In this document: piece after piece, positions 53,567-60,685 of the stretch
Layout: each line of letters begins with the position of its first letter
Position numbering within the stretch: position 1 is the stretch's first letter
Assembly: GCA_028866945.1 (NCBI GenBank)
Contig: JAGWHE010000001.1
Span: 1-64,000, forward strand
Reading direction: 5' to 3'
Source: Nitrososphaerota archaeon
GTDB taxonomy: Archaea; Thermoproteota; Nitrososphaeria; Nitrososphaerales; Gagatemarchaeaceae
DNA length: 64,000 nt
Position numbers and translations under genes: made by a program
The notes under the pieces: generated by a model
Databases searched by the model: none
What the model was told of the DNA's origin: nothing
Seen by the model: only the letters and a program-made list of their open reading frames with translations

Positions 53567-55591
53567 TCAGGGCGCCGCGATCGACGACTCGTCTCCGGAC
53601 TTCACGACCCGGAATATCTGGTCCGCGAAGCTCTCGAGCTCCTTGTCATGAGACACTATGATCACCTGGGGGCAGGCTACTTCGTCCAGCACTTCTCGGA
53701 CGCTCCCCAGCTGCTCCCTGCTGAACCCGTCGGTAGGCTCGTCGAGGATGAGGAGGTTCGACTTCATCCCCACCGAGACCCGCTGGGCGAGGAGGTTGAG
53801 GGCCAGGCGGTAAGCGAGGGCCACGCTGGTCCGCTCCCCTCCGCTCAGATATTTCACGTCCTGCTCATACCCACCCTGCATCACAGCGGGGGTGAAGTCC
53901 TCGTCCACGCTGACCTCCTTCTCGGGGTCGGCGACGAGCATCGCGAACCACCGCTTGAACATCGAATCGAACTCCTGGTTGATCGTGGCGAGCACCGACT
54001 TCTCAATGGTCCTGACCGTCGGCACGAAGTAGTCCGAGAGCCAAATCTCCCTTTCTTTCAGCTTCCTCCCCCTGTTCGAAGCGTCTTCCTTGGCCACTAT
54101 CTGGATGGCGATCTCCGTCTGCCTCTTCTGGACCCCTTCGAGCCTCTCCTTCGCCTTGACGAGGCCCTCCCTTACCCGCCGGAGGGTTACCTCGGTCTGG
54201 TCGAGCTTCTTCTCAGTCACCCTCTTCTGCTGCACCACCTCCTCCAGAACCTTCGTCTGCACGCCGATCTGCTTCAGGCTGTCTTTGGCGAAGGCGACCC
54301 TCTTCTCGAGCTTCCTCATTGCGACCTCCTTCCTGTCCAATTCGTCCTTCAGGCGAGACGCCTCCGACCTGCCCGCGGCGAGCTCCTTCCGCGCCTCCTG
54401 AAACTCCATCATCTCCTCGACCTTCCCCCTTAGCTCCTCGAGCTCAGACTCCGCCCCGGCGAGCTCCTCGTTGATGTGTTCCCTCTCGGCCTCCTTCCTT
54501 GACCGCTTCTCATCGAAGTCGTGCGCCTCGACCGGCCGCTCGCACACCGGGCAGACTCCCTCCTCGGTCATCGACCGGTACTCTGACAGCTTGGCGTCGG
54601 TCGCTCCCTTCAGCCCTTCAAGCTTCTTCACCCTGGCGTCCAGGCTCCGCTCCCTCCGCTTGAGCTCGGCCAGGGGAATCGTGGTCGGCGCCTTCCTGCT
54701 GCTGGCCTCGTCGACGGCGGCCTCTGTCTTCTTCAGCCTCCCCCGGACGTCCTTGATTTCGCCTGCCAGTTCGGCCGCATCTTTCGAGGCGTCCGACCCT
54801 AGCCGCTCGTAGTAATCCCTCTCGGTCTTTGTGCTCTGAAGGTCCAGCTCGCGCTTCTGCGCCTCCGCCAGCTCTGCCTTGAGTGCCAGCGCCTGCTCCT
54901 CCCCCTTCACCTCCTCGGCCTCGAACCCCGCCAGCTCGCCCCTGTGCCTCTCCTCTTCCTGCAGCAGCCGCTCGGTCTGCGCCCTTAGGTCCCCCACCCC
55001 CACCGACATCCCTTCGAGCTTGGTCGCTTCGAGTCGTATGGCGCGCGCCGCCTCCTCGGCGTTGCTGGTCGCGGTCTTGTAGTCCTCTACTCTGAACGCC
55101 CGCCTGAGTATCTGGAGCCTCTGGTCGGGGGCCAGCACTAGTATGCTCTTCATCTCTTCCTGAGGGGTGTACACGGCGTACCTGTAGATCCAGCTCTGGG
55201 CCTTGGGGTCAGGCGCCTCGTTGAACTCGAGGACCTCCAACACCTTCTCCTTGAGCTCGCTGGGGGAGAGGTTCAGGGTCTCCGCCGGGGTCCTGAGCTC
55301 TCCGTCGATTTGCTGCACGCGCCCGGCCTTCCTCTGAAGCCTCCGCTTCACCTCGTACTCCGACCCGTCCACGTCGAAGACCATCCGCACCTCCCCCTCG
55401 TCCGCGCCCAGCTTGAGCACGGCGTTCCCCGACTCCGATCCGAGGCCGAACAACGCGAACTCGACCCCCATCAGCACGCTGGATTTCCCCGATCCGATGT
55501 CCCCTTCGAGCAGCGTCCTGCCCTCGGGGAACCGGACGACGGAGTGCCCGTGGCTCCTGAAGTTCCTCAGTTCGAGCTCCCGTATGATCAA
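53567..55591 (-). CDS. rad50: DNA double-strand break repair ATPase Rad50 (compact)
   Basis: 674 residues from a TTG that overlaps the mre11 stop (TTGA). Walker A GDIGSGKSS is at 30-38, the zinc hook CPVC near 345-348, signature LSGGERTSVALAYRLA and Walker B LLILDEPTDGF in the C-terminal lobe. Coiled coils flank the hook. At 674 residues it is shorter than typical archaeal Rad50 (about 850-900), so the coiled-coil arms are short. It acts with Mre11 in DNA end processing. Confidence 0.92.
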   Translation of the reverse strand: MIIRELELRNFRSHGHSVVRFPEGRTLLEGDIGSGKSSVLMGVEFALFGLGSESGNAVLKLGADEGEVRMVFDVDGSEYEVKRRLQRKAGRVQQIDGELRTPAETLNLSPSELKEKVLEVLEFNEAPDPKAQSWIYRYAVYTPQEEMKSILVLAPDQRLQILRRAFRVEDYKTATSNAEEAARAIRLEATKLEGMSVGVGDLRAQTERLLQEEERHRGELAGFEAEEVKGEEQALALKAELAEAQKRELDLQSTKTERDYYERLGSDASKDAAELAGEIKDVRGRLKKTEAAVDEASSRKAPTTIPLAELKRRERSLDARVKKLEGLKGATDAKLSEYRSMTEEGVCPVCERPVEAHDFDEKRSRKEAEREHINEELAGAESELEELRGKVEEMMEFQEARKELAAGRSEASRLKDELDRKEVAMRKLEKRVAFAKDSLKQIGVQTKVLEEVVQQKRVTEKKLDQTEVTLRRVREGLVKAKERLEGVQKRQTEIAIQIVAKEDASNRGRKLKEREIWLSDYFVPTVRTIEKSVLATINQEFDSMFKRWFAMLVADPEKEVSVDEDFTPAVMQGGYEQDVKYLSGGERTSVALAYRLALNLLAQRVSVGMKSNLLILDEPTDGFSREQLGSVREVLDEVACPQVIIVSHDKELESFADQIFRVVKSGDESSIAAP

Positions 55592-56847
55592 TCCTTCTCC
55601 TCTCCTTTCTCCAGGGCGGCTATCCCTTCCCTGACCATCCTTGCAGCGTAGTCCTTCTTCGCCTCCCCGAGCTTGGAAGGCTGACGCCACAGCCTGAGCA
55701 GCTCGAGCCCTCTCTGGGCTCCGTCCCTGCCGCGGAGGTGCTCGTCCCCGACTTTCACCTTGGACGCCTCCCTCTCGAAGAGCTGCTTCTCTATCGAGGC
55801 AGGCTCTTCCCCTGAGAAGACGGCCACGGCCGCCTCCCTCGACTTCAGCCCGCTCCTGTTCAGATAGACGTGGACCGCGCCCCGCTCGGCAAGGTTCGTC
55901 CTGATTCCGGCAAGCCCCACGTCGGCGACCTTCCCACCTGCGAGCTCTCCGTGCGCCTTGACGACCACCAGCTTCCCCTGCACGTCCACCTTGCCCAGGT
56001 CGTCGGCGACCAGCCTCCCCGCCTCCGGGGCGCCCTTGCCGGTCAGGTCGTATTCCCTGAAGACTCCCTTGAACGTGTCGACGGGGACGAAGGTCTTGCT
56101 GGAGATGCGCTCTTCGAACTCGACCACGTAGAACCCCCTCTTCTCACCCTTGGCCGTGGCTTCGAGGTCTCGCCCATACCCCGTGAAAAGGGGCCCCGGG
56201 AACACGATGTTCCGGCGGCCTGGGAGATCGAACTCCCCCCTCTCATGGATATGCCCTCCGGCGTAGTAGTCGAACCCCTTCGGGAGCAGGTCCGCATCTA
56301 CGGTCTCCATGGCGCTCAGGTATTCCGGTTTCAGCTGAGTGAGCCCGCTGTGGAACGCGAAGATCCTGAACCCCTGCTCCTGCTCGAGGGATGCTCTGTC
56401 CAGCACGTCGAAGTAGCGGCTCTCAAGACCTATCTTCCGGGCGGACATTCCGACGATCTTCGCCCCGGTCTTTTCGTCGACAGTCACCCCGAGCCTGAGC
56501 GAGTCTCCTTCGAAGCTCGGCTTGAACACATTGTTCACCACCCCTGCCGTGTTGAGGATATCGATGACCGAGGTCCCGTTGGGGGTGTAGTCATGGCTCC
56601 CGTAGATGGCGTAGATCGGAATCCCCTGCCTCTGGAGTTCCATCATGCTCTTGAGAGCAGAGTTGACCACGCCCAGGTCAGGGATGCCCACGTGGAAGAG
56701 GTCCCCGCACACGAGGATGAAGTCCACGTCCATCTCCGCGCACTTCTTCATGGCCGCGTCGAAGGTCTGAAGTTCCAGCTTCTGCAGGCTGGGCTCCCTA
56801 TGGGCGCCCAGGTGCGCGTCTGCAAGGTGGGCGAATCTGTGCAACAT
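55588..56847 (-). CDS. mre11: DNA double-strand break repair nuclease Mre11
   Basis: 419 residues from the ATG at 56847, because a TATA-like gcataaaac lies about 24 bp upstream and overlaps the longer in-frame ATG at 56877. The calcineurin-like phosphoesterase shows HLADAHLG (7-14), VCGDLFHVG (46-54), YGSHDYTPN (82-90, with His86), and GGHIHERGEF. It has manganese-dependent nuclease activity and forms a complex with Rad50, encoded just downstream. Confidence 0.93.
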   Translation of the reverse strand: MLHRFAHLADAHLGAHREPSLQKLELQTFDAAMKKCAEMDVDFILVCGDLFHVGIPDLGVVNSALKSMMELQRQGIPIYAIYGSHDYTPNGTSVIDILNTAGVVNNVFKPSFEGDSLRLGVTVDEKTGAKIVGMSARKIGLESRYFDVLDRASLEQEQGFRIFAFHSGLTQLKPEYLSAMETVDADLLPKGFDYYAGGHIHERGEFDLPGRRNIVFPGPLFTGYGRDLEATAKGEKRGFYVVEFEERISSKTFVPVDTFKGVFREYDLTGKGAPEAGRLVADDLGKVDVQGKLVVVKAHGELAGGKVADVGLAGIRTNLAERGAVHVYLNRSGLKSREAAVAVFSGEEPASIEKQLFEREASKVKVGDEHLRGRDGAQRGLELLRLWRQPSKLGEAKKDYAARMVREGIAALEKGEEKD

Positions 56848-56934
56848 CGGGCGCTCCTCGGCGGTCGTTTTATGCATGTTTCGGGCAAGCGCTCGCTGAA
56901 GAGGCCCCCAGCGGAAGGGTCTCCCCCTCCGCCG

Positions 56935-58182: not shown

Positions 58183-59373
58183 ATGCGCTTCCTGGTGGGA
58201 TTGGACGACACCGACTCGTCCCGAGGATACTGTACCACCTACCTTGCCTACCGAATCGCCGTCGACCTCCAGCCGGACGTCCGGGTTCTTCCGTTTCCCC
58301 GGCTCGTGAGGCTCAACCCCAACATCCCGTTCAAGACCCGGGGGAACGCGGCGGTATGCCTTCAGATTGAAGCGCGCGACCAGGCTCTGGCCTTCGAGCG
58401 GATTTCCGCGAAGGTGGAGGAGCTGTCCGACGTGCGTGGCGGCGCCAACTCCGGGATGGTCCTGGTCCAGGGGACGTCGGCCGGGGCGTTCCAAGCGCTC
58501 TACCTCGACGCACTGCACGGGGTCGTGAGCCCTCACAGAGCAAGGAGACTCATAGCCGAGGCGGGCGCGAAATCATTCGAGCTCGGGAACGGCATGGGCC
58601 TGGTCGGCGCTGCGGCCTGCCTGGGCTTCGACGAGACCTTTGATCACACCTTCGAGCTTATCGCCTATCGCAAGCGAGACAACTGGGGGACCGCGCGGGC
58701 GGTAGAAAGTCTGTCCGTGAGGGACATGGATGCGAAGATGTTCCCGCACCTCTACAACAACTACGACTACCAGAAGAGGAAGGTCCTGGTCGCCCCACAC
58801 GGGCCCGACCCAGTCTTCGTCGGGGTCAGGGGGGACTCACCAACGAACGTGCACAAGGCCTTCGAGATGCTCAGATACGACGAGGAGCTCGACGGGCAGA
58901 TGGTGTACGTCTCAAACCAGCACACGGACGCCCACCTCGCGCTGCAACTGGACTGGAAGGTCTACTCGTCAGGGTGGGCCGAGGGGACCGTCCAGGGGCT
59001 CCGGATAGGAGAGGGCGGTCATGTCTACATCTCCATCGACACTGCGGGGCTGACCCGCTCCGTCGCAGCCTACGAGCCGACCGGAGACCTCACAAGGACT
59101 GCCAGGCGACTGAAGGCGGGTGACAGGGTCAGGGTCTTTGGCGGCATCCGGAGGGGGACGGCGAAGCACCCCAAGGTCCTCAACCTGGAGAAGATCGAGG
59201 TGCTATCATCAAAGAAGGGCGGGCTGCCTAGGGGCGCATACGTCTCGTCTCCAAGGGCCAACAGGCACCTCACCAAACCACTGATCCGCTACGGGATGGA
59301 GGACTTCTCGAGCCCGCGCCCAGTCGGCCGCTGGGTCGTGGCCCGGCTCATACAGCCGCGAGTGCGCGCCTGA
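58183..59373 (+). CDS. tiaS: tRNA(Ile2) 2-agmatinylcytidine synthetase TiaS
   Basis: 396 residues. VGLDDTDSSRGYCTTYLA opens the kinase-like domain, NPNIPFKTRGNAAV and GNGMGLVGAAA follow, and an OB-fold is at about 285-345. The terminal RANRHLTKPLIR motif is present. The C-terminal zinc ribbon of characterised TiaS is missing: there is no Cys pair after the OB fold. TiaS uses ATP to add agmatine to C34 of tRNA-Ile2 so that it reads AUA. The start is about 28 bp from a TATA-like gttaaaataat. Confidence 0.9.
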   Translation: MRFLVGLDDTDSSRGYCTTYLAYRIAVDLQPDVRVLPFPRLVRLNPNIPFKTRGNAAVCLQIEARDQALAFERISAKVEELSDVRGGANSGMVLVQGTSAGAFQALYLDALHGVVSPHRARRLIAEAGAKSFELGNGMGLVGAAACLGFDETFDHTFELIAYRKRDNWGTARAVESLSVRDMDAKMFPHLYNNYDYQKRKVLVAPHGPDPVFVGVRGDSPTNVHKAFEMLRYDEELDGQMVYVSNQHTDAHLALQLDWKVYSSGWAEGTVQGLRIGEGGHVYISIDTAGLTRSVAAYEPTGDLTRTARRLKAGDRVRVFGGIRRGTAKHPKVLNLEKIEVLSSKKGGLPRGAYVSSPRANRHLTKPLIRYGMEDFSSPRPVGRWVVARLIQPRVRA

Positions 59374-60520
59374 AGTCTTCGATAAGGTCGTCGACGTCTT
59401 CTATCCCCACCGACACCCTGACCAGCGTCTCCGGGATGCCGGTGCTGGCCCTCTCCTTGGCCGACATCTGCGTGTGGGTCATGTTGTAGGGCTGAGAGAC
59501 CAGGGTCTCCACGCCCCCCAGACTTGCCGCAAGCGTGGCGACCTTCACCGACTCGGTGAACTTCATGGCGTCTCTGGTAGTCCCCTTGAGCTCGAAACTC
59601 AACATCCCTCCGAACCCCTTCATCTGCTTCCTGGCGAGCTGGTGCTGTGGGTGGTCCTTGAGCCCAGGGTAGTGCACTGTCGCGACCTTCTTGTGAGTCG
59701 AGAGGAACTCTGCCAGCGCCATCGCGTTGGCGTTCTGCTGCCTGACGCGGATCGCCATTGTCTTCATCCCCCGGAGTATCAGCCAGGCGGGGAGGGGGTC
59801 GAGGGTGCCGCCGAACTCCCTGCGCATCATCTTGATCTTGTGAGCCCTAGCCTGGCTTGCGACCGCAGCTCCTGCTATGAGGTCGGCGTGGCCGTTAAGG
59901 TACTTGGTGACGCTGTGGAGGACGACGTCCGCTCCCAGTTCCAGCGGGGTCTGGTTGATGGGGGACGCGAATGTGTTGTCCACCAGGAGGAGGGCGTCGT
60001 TGGCATGGGCAAGCTTCGCCGCCTTGGCGATGTCGACCAGCTTCATGGTGGGGTTGGTGGGGCTCTCGATGTAGACTATCCCTGTGCTCTTCCTGACCCC
60101 CCTCTCCAGGGCGCCGAAGTCCGTGGTGTCGACCAGGTCCGTGCTGAACCCCAGCTCCGGGAGCAGGTCGTGGAGGAGGCCGTAAGTGCCGCCGTAGAGA
60201 TCTTTGATCGCCAGGATGTGCGTCCCCTTCTTCAGGAAGGCGAATATCGACGTGGTTATCGCGGCCATCCCCGAAGAGAACCCCGCGCCGTCTCCGCCAC
60301 GCTCGAAGGCGGCCAGCTTCTTCTCGAGCCTGTTCACGGTGGGGTTGTCCCACCTCGAGTAGGTGTATCCCTTCGCCCCTGAGTCGGCTACGGCTATCGG
60401 GACGTCCTCTGCCTTGGAGAAGCCGAAGGTCGAGGTCTCGTAGATGGGGGTAGTCAGCGAGCCGGTGTGCTCATCGAACGGCTCGGCCTCATGGACTGAT
60501 TTCGTCGAGTCCCCGGGCAA
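59348..60520 (-). CDS. Cystathionine gamma-synthase/lyase-family PLP enzyme
   Basis: 390 residues, TTG start. The Cys/Met metabolism PLP family is clear: YSRWDNPTVNRLEKKLA, GFSSGMAAITT, VDNTFASPINQTPLELGADVVLHSVTKYLNGHADLI with the PLP lysine, and SLGGVETLVSQPYNMTH. The family includes cystathionine gamma-synthase, gamma-lyase and methionine gamma-lyase, which cannot be separated here. A TATA-like tatttacc (about 60550) fits a leaderless TTG. The last 26 bases overlap tiaS, convergent. Confidence 0.9.
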   Translation of the reverse strand: MPGDSTKSVHEAEPFDEHTGSLTTPIYETSTFGFSKAEDVPIAVADSGAKGYTYSRWDNPTVNRLEKKLAAFERGGDGAGFSSGMAAITTSIFAFLKKGTHILAIKDLYGGTYGLLHDLLPELGFSTDLVDTTDFGALERGVRKSTGIVYIESPTNPTMKLVDIAKAAKLAHANDALLLVDNTFASPINQTPLELGADVVLHSVTKYLNGHADLIAGAAVASQARAHKIKMMRREFGGTLDPLPAWLILRGMKTMAIRVRQQNANAMALAEFLSTHKKVATVHYPGLKDHPQHQLARKQMKGFGGMLSFELKGTTRDAMKFTESVKVATLAASLGGVETLVSQPYNMTHTQMSAKERASTGIPETLVRVSVGIEDVDDLIEDFRRALAAV

Positions 60521-60575: not shown

Positions 60576-60685
60576 TAGCGAGGGGAGGATTTGAACCTCC
60601 GCTCTGCGGGTTTCTCAGTCCGAGTCTTATGAGCCCGCCGGGATGATCCTTACCCCCACGGGGGGTCTGGCTTCCCCACCTCGCT
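60576..60685 (-). tRNA. Initiator tRNA-Met (CAT) with two insertions
   Basis: The reverse strand gives acceptor AGCGAGG/CCTCGCT, discriminator A at 60576, T-arm GGAGG-TTCAAAT-CCTCC, and anticodon arm GCGGG-CTCATA(A)-CCCGC, matching archaeal initiator tRNA (the A1-T72 pair and CAT anticodon). A 16-nt intron follows A37 and has a canonical bulge-helix-bulge: CTCA/TGAG with 3-nt bulges TAA and AAA. A second 18-nt insertion lies in the D-loop and folds as ACCCCC-cgt-GGGGGT. The spliced 76-nt form has a normal 11-nt D-loop. No CCA is encoded. A TATA-like cttaagg (60708-60716) is about 27 bp upstream. Confidence 0.9.

Follow-up and report, generated by a model that had tools for sequence, protein, structure and literature searches.

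Introns at noncanonical positions, and several introns within one tRNA gene, are well described in the Crenarchaeota and Thaumarchaeota (PMC8450103, PMC3218864, PMC4390854, PMC4033280). tRNAscan-SE 2.0 contains a dedicated thaumarchaeal model of the bulge-helix-bulge (BHB) splice motif, and three is the largest number of introns given for one gene (PMC8450103). The endonuclease known in Thaumarchaea is of the alpha2-beta2 type (PMC3218864, PMC4090602), and a loop lysine, K44, is required for broad endonuclease specificity (PMC6379350). The bulge-helix-loop is cut by some archaeal endonucleases, and it is cut poorly or not at all by the (alpha-beta)2 enzyme of Methanopyrus, which is without this loop (PMC6379350, PMC12397907).

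The initiator tRNA-Met gene described here is ordinary in kind for its order, the Nitrososphaerales, since noncanonical and multiple archaeal introns are well described. Similar to the noncanonical tRNA introns of Thermoproteales and Thaumarchaeota (PMC8450103, PMC3218864, PMC4033280), it has a probable intron site outside the anticodon loop with a putative relaxed BHB, and it is found together with a predicted (alpha-beta)2 endonuclease containing a broad-specificity loop. In contrast to these introns, the site is the 18/19 position of the initiator D-loop, and in the genus of this organism a more stable hairpin competes with the motif. The multi-intron tRNAs of Pyrobaculum and Thermofilum, which hold up to three introns (PMC3218864, PMC4390854, PMC8450103), likewise have several BHB introns per gene; the distinction lies in the number, which is two in the gene studied here and apparently four in the genes L042, L051, L072 and L228 of its relatives. 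No archaeal tRNA gene with four introns was found in the literature searched, and with four each these genes would surpass the three that have been published as the maximum. D-loop introns may already have been described in the initiator tRNA of marine relatives. The order-wide pattern is more interesting than the single gene from which the analysis started.

Identity and Copy Number of the Gene

The gene lies in a 64,000-nt stretch of DNA (the window; contig C48) from an uncultivated member of the Nitrososphaerales, whose draft assembly of 73 contigs and 1.27 Mb is 92% complete. It occupies 60576..60685 of the minus strand and is 110 nt long with two introns and 76 nt long when spliced, with no encoded CCA. 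Read from 60685 to 60576, the minus strand is AGCGAGGTGGGGAAGCCAG [ACCCCCCGTGGGGGTAAG] GATCATCCCGGCGGGCTCATA [AGACTCGGACTGAGAA] ACCCGCAGAGCGGAGGTTCAAATCCTCCCCTCGCTA, where the outer brackets enclose the inserts. On this strand, exon 1 (positions 1–18, 60667..60685) has the 3' end AGCCAG, exon 2 (positions 19–37, 60628..60648) contains the anticodon (60631..60629), and exon 3 comprises positions 38–73 (60576..60611). The exons are separated by an 18-nt insert between G18 and G19 in the D-loop (60649..60666) and by a 16-nt insert at the canonical 37/38 site (60612..60627). The preliminary description had assigned an initiator tRNA-Met(CAT) to the reverse strand at 60576-60685, with a 16-nt insertion after A37 and an 18-nt insertion in the D-loop whose removal leaves 76 nt. 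The coordinates proved exact, both insertions were confirmed to the base, and the length after removal is the same. The archaeal, thaumarchaeal (Nitrososphaerota) origin suggested for the gene is also supported.

The call of tRNA-Met(CAT) is made by ARAGORN solely after both inserts are removed, while removal of one insert leads to miscalls as Tyr or Pro. Without its intron option, ARAGORN reports no tRNA in the window and none in the unspliced gene; with introns on, it calls a tRNA-Ser, which was rejected as a miscall. With both inserts in place, the gene reaches 25.3 bits in Rfam RF00005, short of the cut-off of 29. Because scans without intron handling miss or misname such genes, genomes of this kind may be recorded as having no initiator tRNA. 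Once spliced, the tRNA has an acceptor stem of AGCGAGG/CCTCGCT with an A1-U72 pair and an anticodon arm of GGG-CTCATAA-CCC, which we take to be traits of archaeal initiator tRNAs.

The initiator tRNA-Met gene is very probably functional and present in a single copy, with two introns of the archaeal protein-spliced class in its transcript. A 5'-part initiator pattern has one perfect match in the genome, the window gene, and a second match with one mismatch that begins GGCG instead of AGCG. An anticodon-arm pattern recovers the window gene and one chance match that is without tRNA context. Another intact initiator gene, which would make this copy a decayed duplicate as the preliminary description had considered, was looked for with these two patterns and among the genome's Rfam tRNA matches, and none was recognised in the 92%-complete assembly. 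A decayed or non-functional duplicate would fit with a gene that standard scans miss; however, the gene is the sole initiator gene found, all of its stems are intact after splicing, and an initiator gene with the D-loop insert is present in 22 of the 23 same-genus genomes where the gene was found, such that decay is very improbable. A sequencing or assembly artefact might be suspected in a draft of 73 contigs, but the identical 18-nt insert is present in independently assembled relatives (L058, L061, L062, L063, L071), which already contradicts this explanation and makes it exceedingly improbable.

The neighboring gene (60520..59348) encodes a cystathionine gamma-lyase-like protein with 78-84% identity to proteins of Nitrososphaerales and Nitrososphaerota MAGs, and its closest matches include no cultured organism. 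Further along the minus strand of the window, genes for a Mre11-like nuclease (55588-56877) and a Rad50-like ATPase (53567-55690), recognised from their translations, adjoin as an ordinary archaeal repair gene pair.

Probable Splice Motifs of the Two Inserts

The anticodon-loop intron, which is missing in many relatives, has a CTCA/TGAG central helix of four pairs with predicted cuts at TA|A and AA|A, and its removal restores CTCATAA as a 7-nt anticodon loop. It resembles archaeal BHB introns at 37/38 in its site after A37, its CTCA/TGAG helix, its short length, and its membership in the protein-spliced class. In contrast to these introns, its 5' bulge (TAA) is without a closing inner helix, as one further pair is possible at most and the fold leaves a 12-nt loop. 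The strict hBHBh' form, with both 3-nt bulges closed by helices, is consequently absent from this insert. The preliminary description had called the motif a textbook BHB. The CTCA/TGAG pairing is retained here, whereas the textbook assignment is not, since the 5' bulge is left unclosed on its inner side and the motif is instead a relaxed bulge-helix-loop.

The D-loop insert is best read, from comparison with relatives, as an intron with a relaxed BHB that is visible only through this comparison. In the window gene, exon AGCC is opposed to intron GGTA, giving three pairs (GCC/GGU) and an A-A mismatch, with bulges of AG|A on the 5' side and AG|G on the 3' side. An inner CCC/GGG helix closes off the 5' bulge. 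On the 3' side, the bulge is expanded to 7 nt (AG|GATCA) ahead of the D-stem, and the motif is therefore relaxed and not strict. As AG is repeated at both ends, the intron boundary may slide by 1-2 nt. A strict BHB drawn from the window sequence alone was rejected, as it differs from the predicted fold, in which ACCCCC/GGGGGU forms a 6-bp hairpin bordered by a 2x2 internal loop. This prediction matches the tight 6-bp hairpin noted in the preliminary description, which had also stated that no canonical BHB could be drawn around it; that statement is correct for the strict form, while a relaxed BHB emerges upon comparison.

Initiator genes of relatives were collected with the 5' pattern, which matches 102 of the 121 genomes of the order at ≤1 mismatch, a few of these matches being false; 97 complete initiator genes were read, and the same gene is present in >95 relatives. 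An insert is present at the same D-loop site in 52 of the 97 genes and absent from 45. These inserts are 13-26 nt long and variable in sequence, and they follow the same splice logic. In 50 of the 52, exon AG[C/T]C (positions 14-17) pairs with intron GG[C/T]N or GAC[A/T], where the paired intron bases are those six to three before the intron end and the bulges are AG|N and AN|G. The central helix has four pairs in many relatives, as compared with three in the window gene, and L040 and L042 have the motif in a shifted version. Over 37 distinct introns, the paired fraction at the three inner positions is 0.946, compared with a mean of 0.36 and a maximum of 0.53 in 1000 shuffle trials and with 0.09-0.63 in shifted registers. 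Furthermore, five genes (family f10) have exon AGTC, and the intron sequence is GAC in three of them (L094, L186, L190), with a G-U pair kept in the other two, whereas the 45 AGCC genes that keep the register all lack GAC. At the level of sequence, this pattern is a compensatory change across the exon-intron boundary.

Comparison with the same gene in relatives had been proposed as a check, and it also identifies a member of the same genus without the insert. The D-arm of L053, CCAGGATCATCCC, is uninterrupted and equals the window sequence minus exactly 18 nt. In the RpoB tree, the genome that contains L053 (G025) is sister to a carrier of the D-loop insert (G006) with 95% support; given this nested position, exact loss of the intron is the best reading of the L053 state.

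The main alternative is that the anticodon intron is spliced while the D-loop hairpin is kept, which would leave an initiator tRNA of 94 nt whose D-loop is enlarged. Nearest-neighbor energies strongly favor the hairpin over the BHB register in the window intron (-18.2 vs -6.5 kcal/mol), and this gap of 11.7 kcal/mol is among the largest for D-loop introns in the order (median 5.5). The inner-helix energies were calculated greedily and the D-loop values alone were used; those for T-loop introns were left out, as they are partly script artefacts. The insert is also shared almost unchanged by about a dozen genomes in the genus and is more constant than the anticodon-loop introns. However, G18 and G19 normally pair with the T-loop, and the insert comes between them. 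The hairpin register is confined to the genus-level subtype of the window gene, whereas the BHB register is conserved across the order with the compensatory changes described above; in addition, the variable length of the inserts is unlike that of a functional arm, and L053 and the 45 insert-free genes have no such element. Retention of the hairpin is consequently unlikely. The preliminary description had left open whether both inserts are spliced or the hairpin is retained. Splicing of the D-loop insert at an unusual site now appears better supported and is ranked well above retention because the hairpin is found only at the genus level and the BHB register is order-wide. The D-loop intron offers a clean test of how far a broad-specificity endonuclease tolerates an energy-disfavoured motif.

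No further copy of the D-loop insert, as expected for a transposed intron, was found elsewhere in the genome at ≤3 mismatches. The same splice logic is seen in an 18-nt D-arm insert of a tRNA-Gly(TCC)-like gene elsewhere in this genome (L023; G000:C19:3656-3705 and just upstream, minus strand), where GTCC AG|T ... GGAC AG|C gives four pairs. Insertions also appear to be present in many further tRNA genes of the genome (L014, L016, L017, L019, L021, L025, L026, L029), several of them outside the anticodon loop, and ARAGORN misnames a number of these genes.

Predicted Splicing Machinery

The source genome contains two tRNA_int_endo genes. The product of L180 (185 aa), the catalytic alpha subunit, aligns over its full length with Aeropyrum pernix EndA (3p1z; E 1.3e-44). 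No gap interrupts the alignment in the crenarchaea-specific loop, where a lysine stands opposite K44, and the catalytic Tyr, His, and Lys residues are kept. The product of L181 (181 aa), the second subunit, matches PF01974 at 78.9 bits; here KKAAKY replaces the His motif and the catalytic His is absent, as expected if this protein is a structural beta subunit. Together, the two proteins are predicted to form an (alpha-beta)2 EndA with a broad-specificity loop that would cut relaxed motifs. An RtcB ligase is also encoded (E 2.6e-170).

These components suggest a mechanism in which the (alpha-beta)2 endonuclease would cut both introns by virtue of its broad-specificity loop. At the 37/38 site, the CTCA/TGAG bulge-helix-loop would be cut at TA|A and AA|A. 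At the D-loop site, the relaxed BHB (GCC/GGU) would be cut at AG|A and AG|G, between G18 and G19. RtcB would then join the exons to yield the 76-nt initiator tRNA. The cutting and ligation, the exact position of the D-loop boundary, and the order in which the two introns are removed are inferred. The endonuclease and ligase would be indispensable, because the only initiator gene found depends on two splicing events.

Probable Intron Sites and Turnover across Nitrososphaerales

The initiator tRNA-Met gene of Nitrososphaerales is likely a five-site intron hot spot with up to four introns, in which introns repeatedly come and go within one genus. Of the 97 genes, 6 have no insertion, 20 have one, 45 have two, 23 have three, and 3 have four; L185 is an example of an intron-free, 75-nt initiator gene. 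The insertions are located in the D-loop (18/19), the anticodon loop (37/38), the T-stem (52/53), and the T-loop (59/60), and in family f4 (L083-L086, L211) the third insertion lies nearer the variable loop, with an approximate boundary. The fifth site is in the acceptor stem (4/5) and is found in families f2 and f3 (L222-L226 and L228, near position 1500), which the 5' pattern missed. These insertions form a BHB with the 5' leader (GTAG/CTAC), as in L225, where the motif is GTAG CG|A ... CTAC AA|G and the exon strand takes in the 5' leader. The pattern search gave no convincing initiator gene in G005, G014, G016, G017, G019, G030, G037, and others, and these genomes may be incomplete assemblies or may have further introns.

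Three of the apparent four-intron genes, L042, L051, and L072 (from G036, G027, and G011, respectively), have insertions at 18/19, 37/38, 52/53, and 59/60. Their T-stem and T-loop insertions form BHB helices of four pairs, which in L051 are GCGG/CCGT for the T-stem intron and TTCA/TGAA for the T-loop intron. L228 appears to have four introns as well, at 4/5, 37/38, 52/53, and 59/60. The T-stem and T-loop introns are probably removed in order, since the T-stem intron splits the stem that closes the T-loop motif.

Mapping of the sites on an RpoB tree built from 23 genomes of the family requires at least 4 changes for the D-loop intron, 6 for the anticodon-loop intron, 7 for that of the T-stem, and 8 for that of the T-loop; support at some inner nodes of this tree is weak (31-48%). 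On this sequence tree, introns of the initiator tRNA are repeatedly gained or lost at fixed sites. With 97 genes that contain zero to four introns at fixed sites, and many combinations within one genus, intron gain and loss are directly traceable.

An RtcB tree was rejected as a species tree and the RpoB tree was used in its place, because the RtcB tree places genus g7 within g1 and because intein-sized insertions occur in several of the RtcB genes. The disagreement between the RtcB and RpoB trees suggests transfer. The RtcB insertion is ~500 aa long, lies near profile position 50, and is present in up to 7 of 30 genomes (L254-L260, from G040, G006, G001, G011, G026, G025, and G023); it is probably an intein.
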